The notes beneath the pieces are model-generated. The model was not told the DNA's origin. It worked only from the letters and a program-made list of their open reading frames with translations, and ran no database searches. Positions 2,922 through 31,982 of a stretch of DNA of 64,000 bases are shown here, piece after piece. Source of the stretch: Enterococcus mediterraneensis (GTDB lineage Bacteria > Bacillota > Bacilli > Lactobacillales > Enterococcaceae). The stretch is from contig NZ_UWOP01000002.1 of the NCBI RefSeq assembly GCF_900604485.1, forward strand, positions 62,001 through 126,000. Reading direction: 5' to 3'. Position 1 is the stretch's first letter. Every line of letters begins with the position of its first letter. A program made the translations under genes and the position numbers.

Positions 2922-3433
2922 TTGAATCATCCTCTCTTATTTTTACACCATGATAAATCAGACAAGTAACTCTACTGAAATTACACACATAAAAAGTATG
3001 CGAGAGATCTTCCTATTGAATATTCTGCTAATCCCAGTAAAAAACAGCTGTCTGTTTTTTCACGATTAAGTATAAAATAAATATATAAAAAAGTATATTA
3101 AATTGCTTGAGGGTTTGTTGGTAAAAAACACACTAAAAGAGGTATTCATAGGTAAAACAAAATTATTTTTTGTATTTATTATATAAAAAAATATATTAAA
3201 AATTATTTGGTTGTAACATACTAAATAGAGAAGATTGATGTTATCCAATGATATCTCCATAGTTCGGTAAGAAAATTAATTGAAACAATGAGTAACTCAC
3301 ATGAATATGATGAACATTCGTTGTCTTTCCCGTTATGGAATGGTTTCTTAAACCCTTTTCAATTGTAGTTAGCCATCTAATAAAACGATGTGATACAATG
3401 ATAACAGACATTACATACTAGGAGCATCAACGA
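2922..3433. other. AT-rich intergenic region between divergent ohr and regulator genes
   Basis: About 500 bases without a supported gene. It must hold the ohr promoter on the minus strand. An extended -10 (TGATACAAT, 3391-3399) sits about 35 bases upstream of the regulator's ATG on the plus strand. The 64-codon frame on the minus strand here is AT-rich with no ribosome site, and I do not believe it. Confidence 0.5.
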
Positions 3434-4309
3434 ATGGATATACAACGTTTTATTGCAGCCCGAAAAGCGCAAGGATTTTCACAAAAAGAGTTAAGTGAAG
3501 GAATCTGCACCCAAGCCACACTGAGCCGCTTTGAAAATAACGGTCAGATTCCGACGATCAAGATTTTGATCAAACTATGCAACCGCCTGCAGTTAAGTTT
3601 AGGGGAACTTTTCCCAAATGTAGGGATTCAAGCGTCTAAAGTCAATAAACAGCTGGAACAGTCGGAATTTAATCTGGTTACCAGTGAATATGAAGAAGCA
3701 CAAAAAATTTTGGATCAGATTTCACAAAGCGAATTGCAAAGTCCAACACAAAAATGGCACTATCTTTTTTTAAAAGGTTATTTAAGTGCTTTGCAAGGCG
3801 GCGAGATCACAGAATCTTTCTTTTACTTTAATCAAATCTTATCAGAGTCTCCCAAAGAGAAATCATATATTTTTGTCCTATTAGCGTATACGGGTTTGGG
3901 GCTGACATATGCGAATGAAGGGGATCAAGAGAAGGCGGAATACTTTTTTGATAAAGCAGTCAGCGATGTCTATCAATATCCTATTGAAACGTCAGAGGAT
4001 ATTTGGCGGATATTGAATATCTTGTTTTATTCCGGAACATTTTATGCCAGCATCAAAGATTATAGTGTCAGTGATGCGTTGTTGCAGCATGGAGTCGCGA
4101 TCTGTTCAGATAACCATGTGACCTATTATCTTGCGCGGCTGATGTTCCAATTGGCAAAAAATGCCCTAGTACAAAATAAAGAAACTGAGATCGTTGAAGA
4201 GTTTATTTCCGATGCGCGAGCTTTTGCGAAGATCAATAAGAATGCGGTGGAGCTTCGTGAATTAAAAATCTTGCAGGAGCGCTTGAAGAAACGCAAATCG
4301 CAAGATTGA
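3434..4309 (+). CDS. XRE-family regulator with TPR-like C-terminal domain
   Basis: A 291-residue protein. Residues 1-60 form a Cro/C1-type helix-turn-helix (RKAQGFSQKELSEG, QATLSRFENNG, PTIKILIKLCNRL). The rest is helical with tetratricopeptide-like units, for example GLGLTYANEGDQEKAEYFFDKA at about 155-176. This is the layout of RRNPP/Rgg-PlcR-like peptide-sensing regulators, although no signal peptide gene is evident next to it. The start has GGAGC upstream. Its target is unknown; nrdJ lies downstream behind a terminator and its own promoter. Confidence 0.8.
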   Translation: MDIQRFIAARKAQGFSQKELSEGICTQATLSRFENNGQIPTIKILIKLCNRLQLSLGELFPNVGIQASKVNKQLEQSEFNLVTSEYEEAQKILDQISQSELQSPTQKWHYLFLKGYLSALQGGEITESFFYFNQILSESPKEKSYIFVLLAYTGLGLTYANEGDQEKAEYFFDKAVSDVYQYPIETSEDIWRILNILFYSGTFYASIKDYSVSDALLQHGVAICSDNHVTYYLARLMFQLAKNALVQNKETEIVEEFISDARAFAKINKNAVELRELKILQERLKKRKSQD

Positions 4310-4386
4310 CCTAATGATTTTTTCCAAATAGCGGACATTAAAAGACAGTTTTTACGATTCAATAAAAATAGATATGTTATTTATAC

Positions 4387-4425
4387 GCATCAAAGCAATA
4401 AATTTTTATTTGCTTTGGTGCTTTT
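4387..4425 (+). terminator. Rho-independent terminator
   Basis: Arms around CAAAGCAA and TTGCTTTG form a long hairpin followed by five T residues, about 80 bases after the XRE regulator stop. Confidence 0.75.
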
Positions 4426-4521
4426 TATCGTGCGGTTGATAATCTAGGAGAAATAGCGGACCGGGTTGGAGCAAAACACAAAAAAGCACTTTGGAATCAA
4501 CTGTTAAAGCTGATTAATTGA
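4410..4521 (+). pseudogene. Short coding-like fragment upstream of nrdJ
   Basis: One frame reads without a stop into GAFYRAVDNLGEIADRV, continues with AKHKKALWNQLLKLIN, and stops at TGA 4519-4521. The composition is protein-like, but there is no start or ribosome site and it begins inside a terminator hairpin. It is most likely the 3' remnant of a deleted gene; the family was not recognised. Confidence 0.25.
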
Positions 4522-4534
4522 GAGTCATTCTCAA
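4518..4534. promoter_or_regulatory. Fur-like box, upstream copy
   Basis: TTGAGAGTCATTCTCAA is a perfect 8-bp inverted repeat around a central base. It matches the 7-1-7 Fur consensus TGATAAT-N-ATTATCA at 11 of 14 positions. It lies about 70 bases upstream of the nrdJ -10 element. Confidence 0.45.
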
Positions 4535-4564
4535 CTATAACAAATAAATTCTACAAATACAACA

Positions 4565-4593
4565 TTGAAAAATACGATATATAGTGTGATAAT
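4565..4593 (+). promoter_or_regulatory. nrdJ promoter
   Basis: A -35 TTGAAA (4565-4570) and -10 GATAAT (4588-4593) are separated by 17 bases, placing the start of transcription near 4600, about 50 bases before the TTG start codon. The promoter is embedded in predicted NrdR and Fur sites. Confidence 0.65.
4572..4587. promoter_or_regulatory. NrdR-like box 1
   Basis: ATACGATATATAGTGT matches the published NrdR box consensus acaCwAtATaTwGtgt at 14 of 16 positions. It occupies the -35/-10 spacer of the nrdJ promoter. Its start is exactly 31 bases before the start of box 2, three helical turns, the spacing known for cooperative NrdR pairs. Confidence 0.7.
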
Positions 4594-4601
4594 GATTTTC
4601 G
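4587..4601. promoter_or_regulatory. Fur-like box over the nrdJ -10
   Basis: TGATAATGATTTTCG matches the 7-1-7 Fur consensus at 12 of 14 positions and covers the -10 hexamer, a repression position. It lies between the two NrdR-like boxes. PerR or Zur binding is an alternative because the operators are similar. Confidence 0.5.
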
Positions 4602-4602
4602 A

Positions 4603-4618
4603 ACACAATATATTGTAT
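4603..4618. promoter_or_regulatory. NrdR-like box 2
   Basis: ACACAATATATTGTAT matches the NrdR consensus at 15 of 16 positions and lies within a near-perfect 18-bp palindrome (4602-4619) around the predicted transcription start. Confidence 0.75.
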
Positions 4619-4652
4619 TTTTTAAAAGGAATGTTATTTAGGAGTGATTCAT

Positions 4653-7139
4653 TTGCCAAAAATATATACCGCAAAATATGAAGAAAAATTGAACCAAGAT
4701 ATTCAGCAATTTGAAGGACTGTTTCCTATCAAACCGGAGATGTCTATGACATTTGAAGGCATTTCTCGCTTGATCATGCTGGATCGTTATGCGTCTAAAG
4801 ATCCTAATGGTCATACGATCACTGTAGGAGACTTAGTTGTTTTAACAACACAGCCCCATCCCCAATATCCAGCACGGGGAATCGGTATCGTTAGGGATAT
4901 TACAGATGACCGTTTGATTATTGAAGTGGAGGAAGAATTTCGCAGCACGCTGACAGATCCGCTAGAAATGTCTTCAGGATTAGTAGAACGAAATAAAAAC
5001 GAAGTCGAGAAACCTTTAGAAATCTATTATGAGCAAATAGCCAAACGTGTCGCTCATGGTATCGCTAAAATGGAAAAAGATCCTCAAAAGAATGACTTTG
5101 AACAAGTATTCTATAAACAATTGGTCGAGCAAAATCTGATTCCTGCTGGGCGTGTACTATACGGCGCCGGGACAGATTCCGAAGTTACCTACTTCAATTG
5201 TTTCGTGATGCCTTTTATCCATGATTCACGGGGCGGATTAGCCAAACATCGGCAGGAAGTCATGGAAATCATGAGCCGCGGCGGCGGTGTCGGTACCAAC
5301 GGCTCAACGTTACGTCCGCGGGCGGCGATCGTTCATGGCGTCAATGGCAAATCATCAGGATCCGTTTCATGGTTGAACGATTTAGCCAATTTGACCCACT
5401 TAGTAGAGCAAGGCGGTAGTCGTCGCGGTGCACAAATGATCATGATGGCAGATTGGCATCCGGATATTTTTGAATTTATTATTTCGAAAATCCAAAATCC
5501 CTCTGTCTTGCAGCGCTTGATCGCAACGACAGACAGTCAGACGGTAAAACAACTTGCCACAGAAAAATTATCCTTTACACCTTTATCTGATGCGGAACAT
5601 GAATTTTATACAACTGTTCTTGAACATAAAGAAAGCTATGCTTTAGAACAAAATGCTTATTTGAAAGAGATACAGCAAAAAATCAAACAAGGTGGAAGCT
5701 ATTCTGTCAAAAACAGCGAATTTTTATCAGGAGCCAATATCTCAGTATGTTTAACAAAAGATTTCATGACAGCAGTAGAACAGAATGCGGACTATGAATT
5801 GCGTTTCCCAGCGATTGAGGAATACAACTCAGAAGAAATGGCAGACTATGATAGAAACTGGGCAGAAATCGGCGATGTCAGAGAGTGGGAAGCAAGCGGG
5901 CGAAAAGTGAAAACCTATGCTACCATCAAAGCTCGAGAGCTATGGGATCTGATTACATTCTGCGCGACATATTCCGCGGAACCAGGGATCTTTTTTATTG
6001 ATAACGCAAATGAAATGACAAACGCCACGGCTTATGGGCAAAAAGTCGTCGCTACCAATCCTTGTGGAGAACAACCCCTTACGCCGTATGCAGTCTGCAA
6101 TTTGGCTGCCATCAACTTGGCCAATATGGTAAATCGCAAAGAGAAGAAAGTAGATTTTGAAAAATTAGCGGAAGTCGTTCGCGCAAGCGTCCGTTTTCAA
6201 GATGACGTTATCGATGCAACGCCGTATTTCTTTGATAAAAATGAAACACAAGCAAAAGGGGAACGTCGTGTTGGGTTAGGTGTGATGGGTCTTGCAGATC
6301 TATTGATTTATTGCGAGAAAGTTTATGGTTCTGAAGAAGGCAATCAGTTAGTTGATCAAGTCTTTGAAAAAATCGCTACGACTGCCTATACAGCTTCGAT
6401 CGAATTGGCAAAAGAAAAGGGCAGTTTCCCTTTTCTTATTGGGAAAAATGAAGAAGAAACCCAAGAGTTGCGGAAAAAATTTATTCAAACAGGTTACATG
6501 AAAAAAATGCCGCAAGAAATCCAAGAAGACATCCTGAAATACGGCATCCGCAATTCCCATTTGCTGACAGTTGCACCTACTGGATCAACGGGCACAATGG
6601 CTGGTGTTTCGACTGGTTTAGAACCATATTTCGCCTTTTCGTATTTCCGAAGCGGCCGTTTGGGTAAATTTATTGAAGTCAATGCCGAAATCGTGGATGA
6701 ATATCTCACTGAGCATCCAACCTGTACCAAAGAACAATTACCAGAATTTTTTGTTTCAGCTATGAGTCTTGATCCAGAAGCACACGTTGGGGTACAGTGT
6801 ACGATCCAACGTTGGGTGGATAGTTCGATCTCTAAGACTGTCAACGCACCAAGAGGTTCACAAGTAGCACAAGTTGCTGAAATCTACGAACAACTGTACA
6901 AGGGTGGAGCAAAAGGCGGTACCGTTTATGTCGATGGGAGTCGAGATAGTCAAGTGTTGACTTTGGAAGCAGAAGAGAACGAACAGATGGATCTTTTAGA
7001 TGAGCAACAAATTGTGTCTGTCGATGAACAACTTGCAGAAGGCGAGATTTGCCCCATCTGTCATGAAGGAACGATCGAAGAAATCGGTGGATGCAGTACC
7101 TGCACAAACTGTAAAGTTCAACTTAAATGCGGGTTGTAA
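4653..7139 (+). CDS. nrdJ: Adenosylcobalamin-dependent ribonucleotide reductase (class II)
   Basis: An 828-residue enzyme making deoxyribonucleotides with adenosylcobalamin in place of an iron or manganese radical cofactor. Visible signatures include SRGGGVGTNGS and GGSRRGAQM (about 210-270), the active-site NPCGEQPL loop (about 468-475), GLGVMGLADLL, the PTGSTGTMAG phosphate loop, and a C-terminal zinc-like region with two CxxC pairs (CPICHEG, CTNC). The first cysteine of the redox pair is in YFNCFVMP. I chose the TTG at 4653 because AGGAG lies 8 bases upstream; the GTG at 4644 overlaps that site. No NrdB or NrdI neighbour is present, as expected for class II. A DUF4430 lipoprotein follows. 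Confidence 0.9.
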   Translation: MPKIYTAKYEEKLNQDIQQFEGLFPIKPEMSMTFEGISRLIMLDRYASKDPNGHTITVGDLVVLTTQPHPQYPARGIGIVRDITDDRLIIEVEEEFRSTLTDPLEMSSGLVERNKNEVEKPLEIYYEQIAKRVAHGIAKMEKDPQKNDFEQVFYKQLVEQNLIPAGRVLYGAGTDSEVTYFNCFVMPFIHDSRGGLAKHRQEVMEIMSRGGGVGTNGSTLRPRAAIVHGVNGKSSGSVSWLNDLANLTHLVEQGGSRRGAQMIMMADWHPDIFEFIISKIQNPSVLQRLIATTDSQTVKQLATEKLSFTPLSDAEHEFYTTVLEHKESYALEQNAYLKEIQQKIKQGGSYSVKNSEFLSGANISVCLTKDFMTAVEQNADYELRFPAIEEYNSEEMADYDRNWAEIGDVREWEASGRKVKTYATIKARELWDLITFCATYSAEPGIFFIDNANEMTNATAYGQKVVATNPCGEQPLTPYAVCNLAAINLANMVNRKEKKVDFEKLAEVVRASVRFQDDVIDATPYFFDKNETQAKGERRVGLGVMGLADLLIYCEKVYGSEEGNQLVDQVFEKIATTAYTASIELAKEKGSFPFLIGKNEEETQELRKKFIQTGYMKKMPQEIQEDILKYGIRNSHLLTVAPTGSTGTMAGVSTGLEPYFAFSYFRSGRLGKFIEVNAEIVDEYLTEHPTCTKEQLPEFFVSAMSLDPEAHVGVQCTIQRWVDSSISKTVNAPRGSQVAQVAEIYEQLYKGGAKGGTVYVDGSRDSQVLTLEAEENEQMDLLDEQQIVSVDEQLAEGEICPICHEGTIEEIGGCSTCTNCKVQLKCGL

Positions 7140-7232
7140 AAACAATGAAAAAAATTGTTATTGTATTTTAACTGCTCTTTTTTTAAAATAAACGAGGACC
7201 ATAACGGCAAGAATTTTTAAGGAGTGAGAATA

Positions 7233-7625
7233 ATGAAAAAAATCATCACCGCGAGTCTTCTCGTGATAAGTACCTTGGTGATCGGTGGTTGTAGTACTCC
7301 TGCAACAGATACTGCTGCAAGTACGACTACGGAGAAAACAACTCAACAAACTGTGACGATCACTTTAAAAGAAGACAAGCAGCAAATCGATTCTAAAAAA
7401 ATCGAAGTCAAAGAGAAGGCAAATCTATTTGATACGATGAAAGAAAACTTCACGATCAAAGATGAAGATGGGTTCATCACGTCAATTGAAGGCCATGAGC
7501 AAGATCCAAAAGAAAATAAATACTGGACCTATACTATTAATGGAGAGCCTGCTATGAAAGGCGCAAAAGAAACCATCCTGAAACAAGGCGACAAGGTTGT
7601 TTTTGAATTGGAGAAAACGCAGTAA
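7233..7625 (+). CDS. DUF4430 (transcobalamin-like C-terminal) lipoprotein
   Basis: A 130-residue exported lipoprotein. Its basic N-terminus and hydrophobic stretch end in the lipobox VIGGCS (Cys about 20), followed by a Thr-rich linker. The rest fits DUF4430, a domain related to the C-terminal cobalamin-binding domain of intrinsic factor and transcobalamin: LFDTMKENF, then FITSIEG, then KYWTYTINGEPAMKGA and the closing GDKVVFELE. The ATG at 7233 has AGGAG 8 bases upstream. It lies 93 bases after nrdJ with no strong terminator between, so co-transcription is plausible. I infer a role in capturing corrinoid for NrdJ; binding is not shown. Confidence 0.75.
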   Translation: MKKIITASLLVISTLVIGGCSTPATDTAASTTTEKTTQQTVTITLKEDKQQIDSKKIEVKEKANLFDTMKENFTIKDEDGFITSIEGHEQDPKENKYWTYTINGEPAMKGAKETILKQGDKVVFELEKTQ

Positions 7626-31589: not shown

Positions 31590-31637
31590 AAAAAATCAGT
31601 CTAAATCCCTTAATACTAGGCTTTTAGACTGATTTTT
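31590..31637 (-). terminator. Hairpin between small membrane gene and type I toxin
   Basis: AAAATCAGTCTAAA and TTTAGACTGATTTT form a perfect stem with T-runs on both strands. On the minus strand it would end an antisense RNA running through the toxin gene. Confidence 0.6.
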
Positions 31638-31638
31638 A

Positions 31639-31647
31639 TGATATAAT
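31639..31647 (+). promoter_or_regulatory. Toxin mRNA promoter, extended -10
   Basis: TGATATAAT is an extended -10 element (TGN plus TATAAT), about 97 bases before the toxin start. The -35 region is weak. Confidence 0.45.
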
Positions 31648-31743
31648 TAGATGACAGTAAAGTTTAATGACGGTGGCTATCTCTTCGAAAGTGAGGTGGT
31701 GCGTATGAACGTACTTCCAAAATCTAATGAAAGGAGAAGCCTT

Positions 31744-31848
31744 TTGTCTGCATATGAAACAATTCAGATAATCCTTGGTTTTGGTATGTTTACCATCGCA
31801 TTGATTAGTCTGGTTGTGAATGTGCTGAAAAACGACAAAAAGAAATAA
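31744..31848 (+). CDS. Putative holin-like type I toxin
   Basis: A 34-residue hydrophobic peptide starting with TTG (MSAYETIQIILGFG) and ending VVNVLKNDKKK. The YETI-hydrophobic helix-KNDKKK pattern is that of the holin-like toxin family (Hol-Tox, TxpA/BsrG-like) used in type I toxin-antitoxin systems. AAGGAG lies 7 bases upstream of the TTG; the longer open frame from 31651 has no such site. A minus-strand -10 at 31961 and the hairpin at 31590 could define the antisense RNA antitoxin. Confidence 0.75.
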   Translation: MSAYETIQIILGFGMFTIALISLVVNVLKNDKKK

Positions 31849-31925
31849 CCGTCTACTTTAGCAGGCCGACGATTATTTCTAGAAAGTAATTAAAATCTGC
31901 CACCGTCTTAATCGGTGCTGTCTAA

Positions 31926-31950
31926 GGGGAGTTGTTGGCGCAACTCCTCT
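31926..31950 (+). terminator. Terminator of the toxin mRNA
   Basis: GGAGTTG and CAACTCC flank a 6-base loop and are followed by TCTTT. The same stem would form at the 5' end of an antisense RNA. Confidence 0.6.
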
Positions 31951-31982
31951 TTACGTATTCATTATACCATATATCAAAGGAT

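Follow-up and report, generated by a model that had tools for sequence, protein, structure and literature searches.

The closest described precedent for combined control of a ribonucleotide reductase by NrdR and Fur is the class Ib operon nrdHIEF of Salmonella Typhimurium, for which two NrdR boxes and a Fur box at -309 are reported, together with repression by Fur and induction by iron depletion (PMC2892513). A review passage describes the class Ib enzyme as 'activated' through Fur (PMC4009431). For class II enzymes, a NrdR box lies upstream of nrdJ in Pseudomonas aeruginosa, where NrdR represses the gene aerobically (PMC4409342). Class II reductase genes are also described next to B12 genes, both in the nrdJ-cbrS-cbrT-pduO cluster of Lactobacillus delbrueckii (PMC5997447) and on the Lactobacillus plantarum plasmid pMF1298-5, which carries nrdJ, cobA and CbrVUT (PMC6722938). 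In Enterococcus faecalis, the Fur regulon is marked by the 15-bp palindrome TGAnAAnnnTTnTCA at the feo, fhu and ycl operons, and such iron-uptake genes rise 5- to 18-fold in a fur deletion; the regulon table of that paper holds no reductase or B12 gene, and 'nrd' and 'ribonucleotide' are absent from its main text (PMC6056675). The main text of a regulon study of lactic acid bacteria, whose 30 genomes are grouped as Streptococcaceae and Lactobacillaceae, likewise lacks 'nrdJ' (PMC3616900). The Fur-NrdR composite of class Ib nrdHIEF, the clustering of nrdJ with cbr genes and the plasmid-borne nrdJ and B12 genes of L. plantarum can be counted as already known. Searches of open-access full texts found no report that Fur controls a class II reductase or cbrT, or that nrdJ expression depends on Fur or iron.

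Like Salmonella nrdHIEF as reported, the enterococcal nrdJ locus analysed here combines a pair of NrdR boxes at the reductase promoter with a Fur-type box well upstream. It differs in that the enzyme is class II and B12-dependent, the phylum is another one, the box sits near -74 with a constant spacing, and most relatives have a divergent B12 transporter gene. The 15-bp palindrome is the same as that published for the E. faecalis Fur regulon (PMC6056675). As in L. delbrueckii, a class II reductase, an adenosyltransferase and CbrT are encoded together, but the enterococcal cbrT is divergent and shares an intergenic Fur box with nrdJ, a site of which the passage on the L. delbrueckii cluster makes no mention (PMC5997447). 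The L. plantarum plasmid is alike in carrying a class II reductase with B12 genes, although its gene set is different and regulation is not discussed in the relevant passage (PMC6722938). The P. aeruginosa nrdJ shares the NrdR box, and no Fur site is described in the corresponding account (PMC4409342).

The reading favoured here, to which a probability of roughly 0.6 is given, is that Fur-iron represses B12 uptake and probably nrdJ, that NrdR tunes nrdJ to dNTPs, and that the two are the inputs of a horizontally moving B12/reductase module. NrdR on a box pair over the nrdJ promoter would repress nrdJ at high dATP, and Fur-iron on an operator located 31 bp before the -35 of nrdJ would repress cbrT and probably nrdJ. 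When iron becomes scarce Fur would leave, B12 uptake and NrdJ would rise, and dNTP synthesis would shift from the iron-using NrdEF and NrdDG to a cobalt-based reductase. The arrangement of sites and genes suggests that enterococcal cells turn to an iron-free reductase when iron is short, although the need for a cobalt enzyme is weakened because class Ib enzymes can use manganese, according to a review passage (PMC4009431). If this reading is correct, the link between a conserved Fur operator and both a B12-dependent class II reductase and the supply of its B12 would constitute an iron-to-cobalt switch in a key reaction of DNA synthesis. Such a switch would help to account for the retention of a class II enzyme, often plasmid-borne, by enterococci that also have class Ib and class III enzymes, and it predicts that nrdJ and cbrT rise under iron starvation.

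The nrdJ gene, its promoter and the NrdR boxes

The window, that is, the whole 64-kb stretch of DNA analysed, belongs to a genome of 2.70 Mb in three contigs. The features around its reductase gene are as follows.

4519 to 4533, no strand assigned: far Fur-type operator (predicted) TGAGAGTCATTCTCA, 13/14 to TGAKAATNATTMTCA and 9/10 to the published E. faecalis palindrome
4534 to 4562, minus strand: divergent promoter-like sequence TTGTAT-17-TATAGT, found by eye, abutting the Fur box in the position of the relatives' cbrT promoter
4565 to 4593, plus strand: nrdJ promoter, with -35 TTGAAA (4565-4570), a 17-bp spacer and the extended -10 TGTGATAAT (4585-4593)
4572 to 4587, plus strand: NrdR box 1 ATACGATATATAGTGT, 14/16, inside the -35/-10 spacer
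4587 to 4601, plus strand: near Fur-like sequence TGATAATGATTTTCG, 12/14, overlapping the nrdJ -10, poorly conserved and probably fortuitous
4603 to 4618, plus strand: NrdR box 2 ACACAATATATTGTAT, 15/16, immediately 3' of the inferred transcription start
4644 to 7139, plus strand: nrdJ, class II adenosylcobalamin-dependent ribonucleotide reductase, assigned by curated HMMs; an alternative start at TTG 4653 is possible, after AGGAG at 4640-4644
7224 to 7625, plus strand: DUF4430 lipoprotein gene, start probably ATG 7233, a module gene in about half of the relatives examined

All of the sequences quoted from this region in an earlier, sequence-only reading are present where it had placed them, and the class II identity that it gave the reductase is confirmed by the curated model NF005991 (1349.7 bits, cut-off 854); the protein also passes the class II model TIGR02504 (587.5 bits, cut-off 399.95). 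At a cut-off of E 1e-100, nrdJ has no match in nine other genomes of the window's genus. Inspection by eye of the DNA downstream of nrdJ in 13 relatives found an adenosyltransferase-like gene in 10 and a DUF4430-like gene in 7, both confirmed by HMM in one locus (L012). The window's module has only the DUF4430 gene, and the one adenosyltransferase of its genome is encoded away from nrdJ, at C1:1353083. The DUF4430 lipoprotein may bind B12; a PDB search with one such protein gave a best match of only E 0.07. Elsewhere in the window's genome (L164:750-2518, corresponding to C1:1368049-1369817), a DUF4430-like lipoprotein gene lies, by eye, immediately 5' of a cbrT paralogue and downstream of eutH-/eutQ-like genes, a locus where this family once more adjoins B12 uptake. 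A scan of the window against Rfam at the gathering score gave two hits only, both at about 31.6-32.0 kb, and thus no riboswitch or other RNA at the nrdJ promoter. The two hits, rli28 and RatA, are adjacent (31632-31814 on the plus strand and 31880-31964 on the minus strand) and resemble a type I toxin-antitoxin RNA pair.

Repression at high dATP is established for the NrdR family, and NrdR is encoded once in the window's genome (TIGR00244, 199.5 bits). The nrdJ promoter, TTGAAA-17-GATAAT with a TG extension, is retained in most relatives of the NrdJ clade defined below; a promoter scan of the window as a whole showed no excess (9 found vs 11.2 in shuffles). The two NrdR boxes start 31 bp apart, sum to 29/32 and are the only NrdR-box matches with three or fewer mismatches in the 64 kb. 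Two matches per window are not rare by count (shuffle mean 0.96, with two or more in 24 of 100 shuffles); a pair of at least 25/32 at this spacing occurred in none of 7500 shuffled upstreams. The three best NrdR matches of the genome lie at nrdD (16/16), at nrdHEF (15/16) and at nrdJ box 2, box 1 being tied with two other places. Second boxes of 12/16 accompany those of nrdHEF, 31 bp apart, and of nrdD, 42 bp apart. Among Enterococcaceae nrdJ upstreams, for which spacings of 30-32 bp only were tried, a pair of at least 25/32 is found in 23 of 25, with G028 (23) and G061 (21) below this score; box 1 is weak in several relatives, for example 6/16 in G061. The relatives, the shuffles and the presence of nrdR in the genome all uphold the pair as the sequence-only reading had described it. 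Two 16-bp boxes separated by whole helical turns at the promoter of an nrd gene are the arrangement of a NrdR regulon member, pointing to nrdJ as a probable target of NrdR repression at high dATP.

The upstream Fur-type box and the divergent cbrT gene

Within the window alone both Fur-like boxes are unremarkable, as the E. faecalis palindrome is matched with one or no mismatch at 10 places vs 7.7 expected, and significance claimed on that basis was dropped. The far box is instead significant because it is conserved at a fixed place in relatives. It lies at the position given by the sequence-only reading, but is not the perfect palindrome reported there: the outer arms TTGAGA and TCTCAA pair, and one of the seven arm pairs of the 7-1-7 structure is mismatched. 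Enterococcaceae genomes were searched (105 in all, 25 with nrdJ), and the NrdJ clade of the window was taken as 15 loci, the window included, with at least 71% identity, the other 10 Enterococcaceae standing at 64-67%. In 13 of the 15 clade loci a far box of 13-14/14 precedes NrdR box 1 by 50-53 bp. The published E. faecalis consensus is matched 10/10 in 12 of them and 9/10 in the window; it is missing from G064 and G044, which have lost the box and kept the NrdR pair. Five further loci were scored separately, with the box present in L013, L015 and L018 and absent from L008 and L079, while most of L007-L020 and L078 were scored via their genomes, which have the same upstream.

A box of at least 13/14 anywhere in a shuffled 305-bp upstream has a mean chance of 0.0009. 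Pairwise identity, compared over 12 of 16 box-bearing rows (G068, G038, L013 and L015 being omitted as near-copies of G034), is 0.85 within the box, 0.38 in the 40 bp upstream of it and 0.50 in the spacer between box and promoter, where composition alone predicts 0.28. In the five of these loci without a linked cbrT the corresponding values are 0.83, 0.33 and 0.35, and the spacing is still 50-53 bp. G034, G068, G038, L013 and L015 are near-copies, so the rows overstate the number of independent observations. On the NrdJ tree the presence of the box takes three changes, a number as low in 500 of 500 label shuffles, which speaks neither for nor against a single gain. The window and an E. gallinarum plasmid are similar in DNA sequence from 4515, four bases before the box, to 4615. 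As a general feature of nrdJ the Fur box can be ruled out: it is absent from all 10 of the distant Enterococcaceae nrdJ upstreams (best 11/14 and 8/10) and from all 64 other nrdJ upstreams (61 from named Bacillales-type genera and three from less certain MAGs), which were up to 400 bp each, only about 110 bp for L039, and of which just 27 have a NrdR pair of at least 26/32 at the spacings tried.

An S-component gene, cbrT, is divergent to nrdJ in 10 of the 15 clade loci, and the box is present in nine of those 10, G044 being the exception. When the 20 cbrT homologues with loci were compared, a box of at least 13/14 preceded nine of the 10 linked to nrdJ and none of the 10 unlinked ones; nor was it found upstream of the two paralogues of the window's genome. 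The box is thus unsupported as a property of all cbrT genes, as might be imagined for, say, a haem importer. The CbrT of L012 has a single PDB match at E up to 1, entry 6fnp (E 5.3e-21), titled 'Membrane protein', which we take to be CbrT; the cbrT copies of L012 and L017 have no Pfam or NCBIfam match, and PLSDB annotates the cbrT-like gene as 'cobalamin ECF transporter' in some records and as 'hypothetical protein' in others. Its nrdJ and adenosyltransferase neighbours suggest that the divergent gene serves cobalamin transport. In all nine linked loci the box begins 36-60 bp before the matched cbrT start, and in the seven that were displayed it starts, by eye, on the final base of a TATAAT-like -10 on the minus strand whose -35 is about 16-17 bp away. 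The cbrT -35 adjoins the nrdJ -35, placing the promoters back to back with the Fur box on the cbrT start and the NrdR boxes on the nrdJ start.

This geometry favours an alternative which is nevertheless considered rather unlikely, namely that the Fur box controls the divergent cobalamin transporter gene only, nrdJ answering to NrdR alone and the box being a relic wherever cbrT is unlinked, as in the window. With its centre about 74 bp before the inferred start of nrdJ, the box is better placed for repression of cbrT than for repression of nrdJ. The window's box is one mismatch off the consensus, and it could be a relic because divergent promoter-like sequence persists there without a gene, no cbrT remnant being found in window positions 3301-4700 at E up to 10; that minus-strand sequence, judged by eye, may itself be a relic of a cbrT promoter or the source of a short transcript. 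Moreover, G064 and L008, in which cbrT is unlinked, have lost the box. Against a role confined to cbrT, five of the seven clade loci without linked cbrT (the window, or G000, and G033, G028, G063 and L018) keep a 13-14/14 box at 50-53 bp, although the identity of spacer and upstream DNA is near background; in G028, G063 and L018 the divergent promoter looks decayed by eye while the box is intact; and G044 retains cbrT although its box is gone. The sole candidate target in the window, G033 and G028 is nrdJ, because the upstream neighbour points the other way, and in G063 and L018 a DUF1275 gene, a possible target, is divergent instead of cbrT. Distance alone is no objection to Fur control, since Salmonella nrdHIEF is reported to be repressed from a Fur box 309 bp upstream (PMC2892513).

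Fur control of cbrT is better supported than that of nrdJ because the box lies at a divergent cbrT promoter in nine of 15 loci. Box placement argues strongly for direct repression of cbrT by Fur in the relatives, and the fixed spacing, with retention of the box where cbrT is not linked, argues with moderate strength for control of nrdJ. Any effect of Fur on nrdJ would be either to repress it from the upstream end of its promoter or to free it from a competing promoter. The far box might otherwise be neutral for nrdJ, or help it by silencing that competing promoter.

Predicted recognition of the boxes by Fur

The sequence-only reading had proposed two Fur boxes, one of them on the -10; direct steric repression of nrdJ from these boxes, together with NrdR, now appears improbable. 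The near box does score 12/14 in the window, where it overlaps the -10 as stated, and 13/14 in G035; five of the 15 loci have a TGATAAT -10, and two of these extend to at least 12 as compared with about 3-4% expected each. However, seven of its bases form the extended -10 itself (TGATAAT), the remaining half being this good by chance in about 3-4% of cases, and the score is 11 or lower in the other 13 clade loci, most of which retain the promoter. With only one of 14 relatives reaching 12/14, the near box is ruled out as a general Fur feature; it lacks the conservation in orthologous promoters expected of a Fur regulon site and is probably fortuitous, the window and G035 being possible exceptions. 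The claim that the boxes are conserved upstream of nrdJ in relatives therefore holds for the far box and the NrdR pair and fails for the near box (at least 12/14 in 2/15). Joint control of nrdJ by Fur and NrdR survives in the NrdR pair, the conserved far operator and the encoded Fur, and is altered in that cbrT is now the likelier direct target of Fur.

Three Fur-family proteins are encoded in the window's genome, one of which, encoded at C1:2142156, passes the curated Fur model NF051892 (245.9 bits, cut-off 220). The far box has the characters of a Fur regulon site, as a 15-bp 7-1-7 palindrome at a promoter, conserved among orthologues, in a genome that encodes a true Fur. The strict pattern TGAGANTNATTCTCA occurs with one or no mismatch at five places in this genome, at nrdJ, feoAB, a FecCD permease gene, a siderophore-binding-protein/ABC region and a DUF1858 gene; it was derived from the nrdJ box, so the rank of nrdJ itself is uninformative. 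In eight relatives the pattern TGAKAATNATTMTCA, picked after the boxes had been seen, has 7-15 sites per genome with one or no mismatch vs 1-4 for the reversed pattern, the nrdJ site being included in all eight. Translations were inspected by eye at 36 site loci, a subset of the sites of those genomes: 16 loci (15 places) adjoin iron-uptake-type genes of the feoA, FecCD or siderophore-binding/ABC type, three are nrdJ, three are thioredoxin/ferredoxin-reductase-like, two are DUF1858 and 12 adjoin unrelated genes, as expected of noise. Ten selected boxes (eight far, two near) fit two Fur consensuses at 11-14/14, PerR at 9-11 and Zur at 7-10.

Recognition of the far box by another Fur-family protein, PerR or Zur, or its origin as a palindrome by chance, is very improbable even with three Fur-family proteins in the genome and the resemblance of PerR-type boxes to Fur boxes, as the PerR and Zur consensuses fit less well than Fur, the outer TGA...TCA is kept in the eight far boxes, the same motif adjoins iron-uptake-type genes, and conservation at a fixed place makes chance unlikely.

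Two other neighbourhoods of the motif were noted. In the window's own genome (L004:1501-1515, at C1:1670457) and in L176 and L194, a Fur-like box lies shortly 5' of a DUF1858 gene that has a second open frame behind it, and the two frames may form an unrecognised iron-responsive operon. In addition, a Fur box separates the divergent genes feoA and nrdH in the window's genome (L003:1460-1830, at C1:780518-780888) and in L171, L172, L173, L175 and L177. In the window's genome this box is about 190-220 bp from the nrdHEF NrdR pair, making nrdHEF a second nrd operon that adjoins a Fur site.

Plasmid copies and probable mobility of the module

Plasmids searched with blastn yielded matches in 42 records, 35 of them from Enterococcus and two from Lactococcus. 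A natural carrier of the module is the dairy bacterium Lactococcus cremoris 7-1, in which it lies on pLC71B. The cbrT-nrdJ intergenic region is present at 95% identity or more in 16 plasmid records, nine of which are typed as conjugative, and IS6-family transposases flank three plasmid copies. Of six plasmid upstreams scored, five (L207-L211) show both the Fur box and the NrdR pair on direct reading, and the Aerococcus copy (L212) has the pair only. The window's contig, C2 (293 kb), is possibly a megaplasmid; it has a RepA_N match of 45.6 bits, and C1 has a stronger one of 95.3 bits.

These records lead to a tentative extension of the favoured reading, held at somewhat short of even odds, in which plasmids, some of them conjugative, spread a portable iron-sparing module. 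It would comprise a B12 importer, an adenosyltransferase, a B12-scavenging lipoprotein and a class II reductase as one Fur-controlled unit, would use the Fur and NrdR of the recipient, and would allow lactic acid bacteria to make DNA precursors with cobalt, not iron, under iron withholding.

In nine E. faecium plasmid records (L216 and hits H47-H53, H55 and H56) the match begins within nrdJ; in L216, the one inspected, an IS1216 transposase lies at that end of the match and no cbrT is annotated beside it. The nrdJ copies of L013 and L015, on short Lactococcus contigs (one of them from a MAG), are near-identical to those of enterococci, with both the Fur box and the NrdR pair in place, and reflect either recent transfer or contamination.
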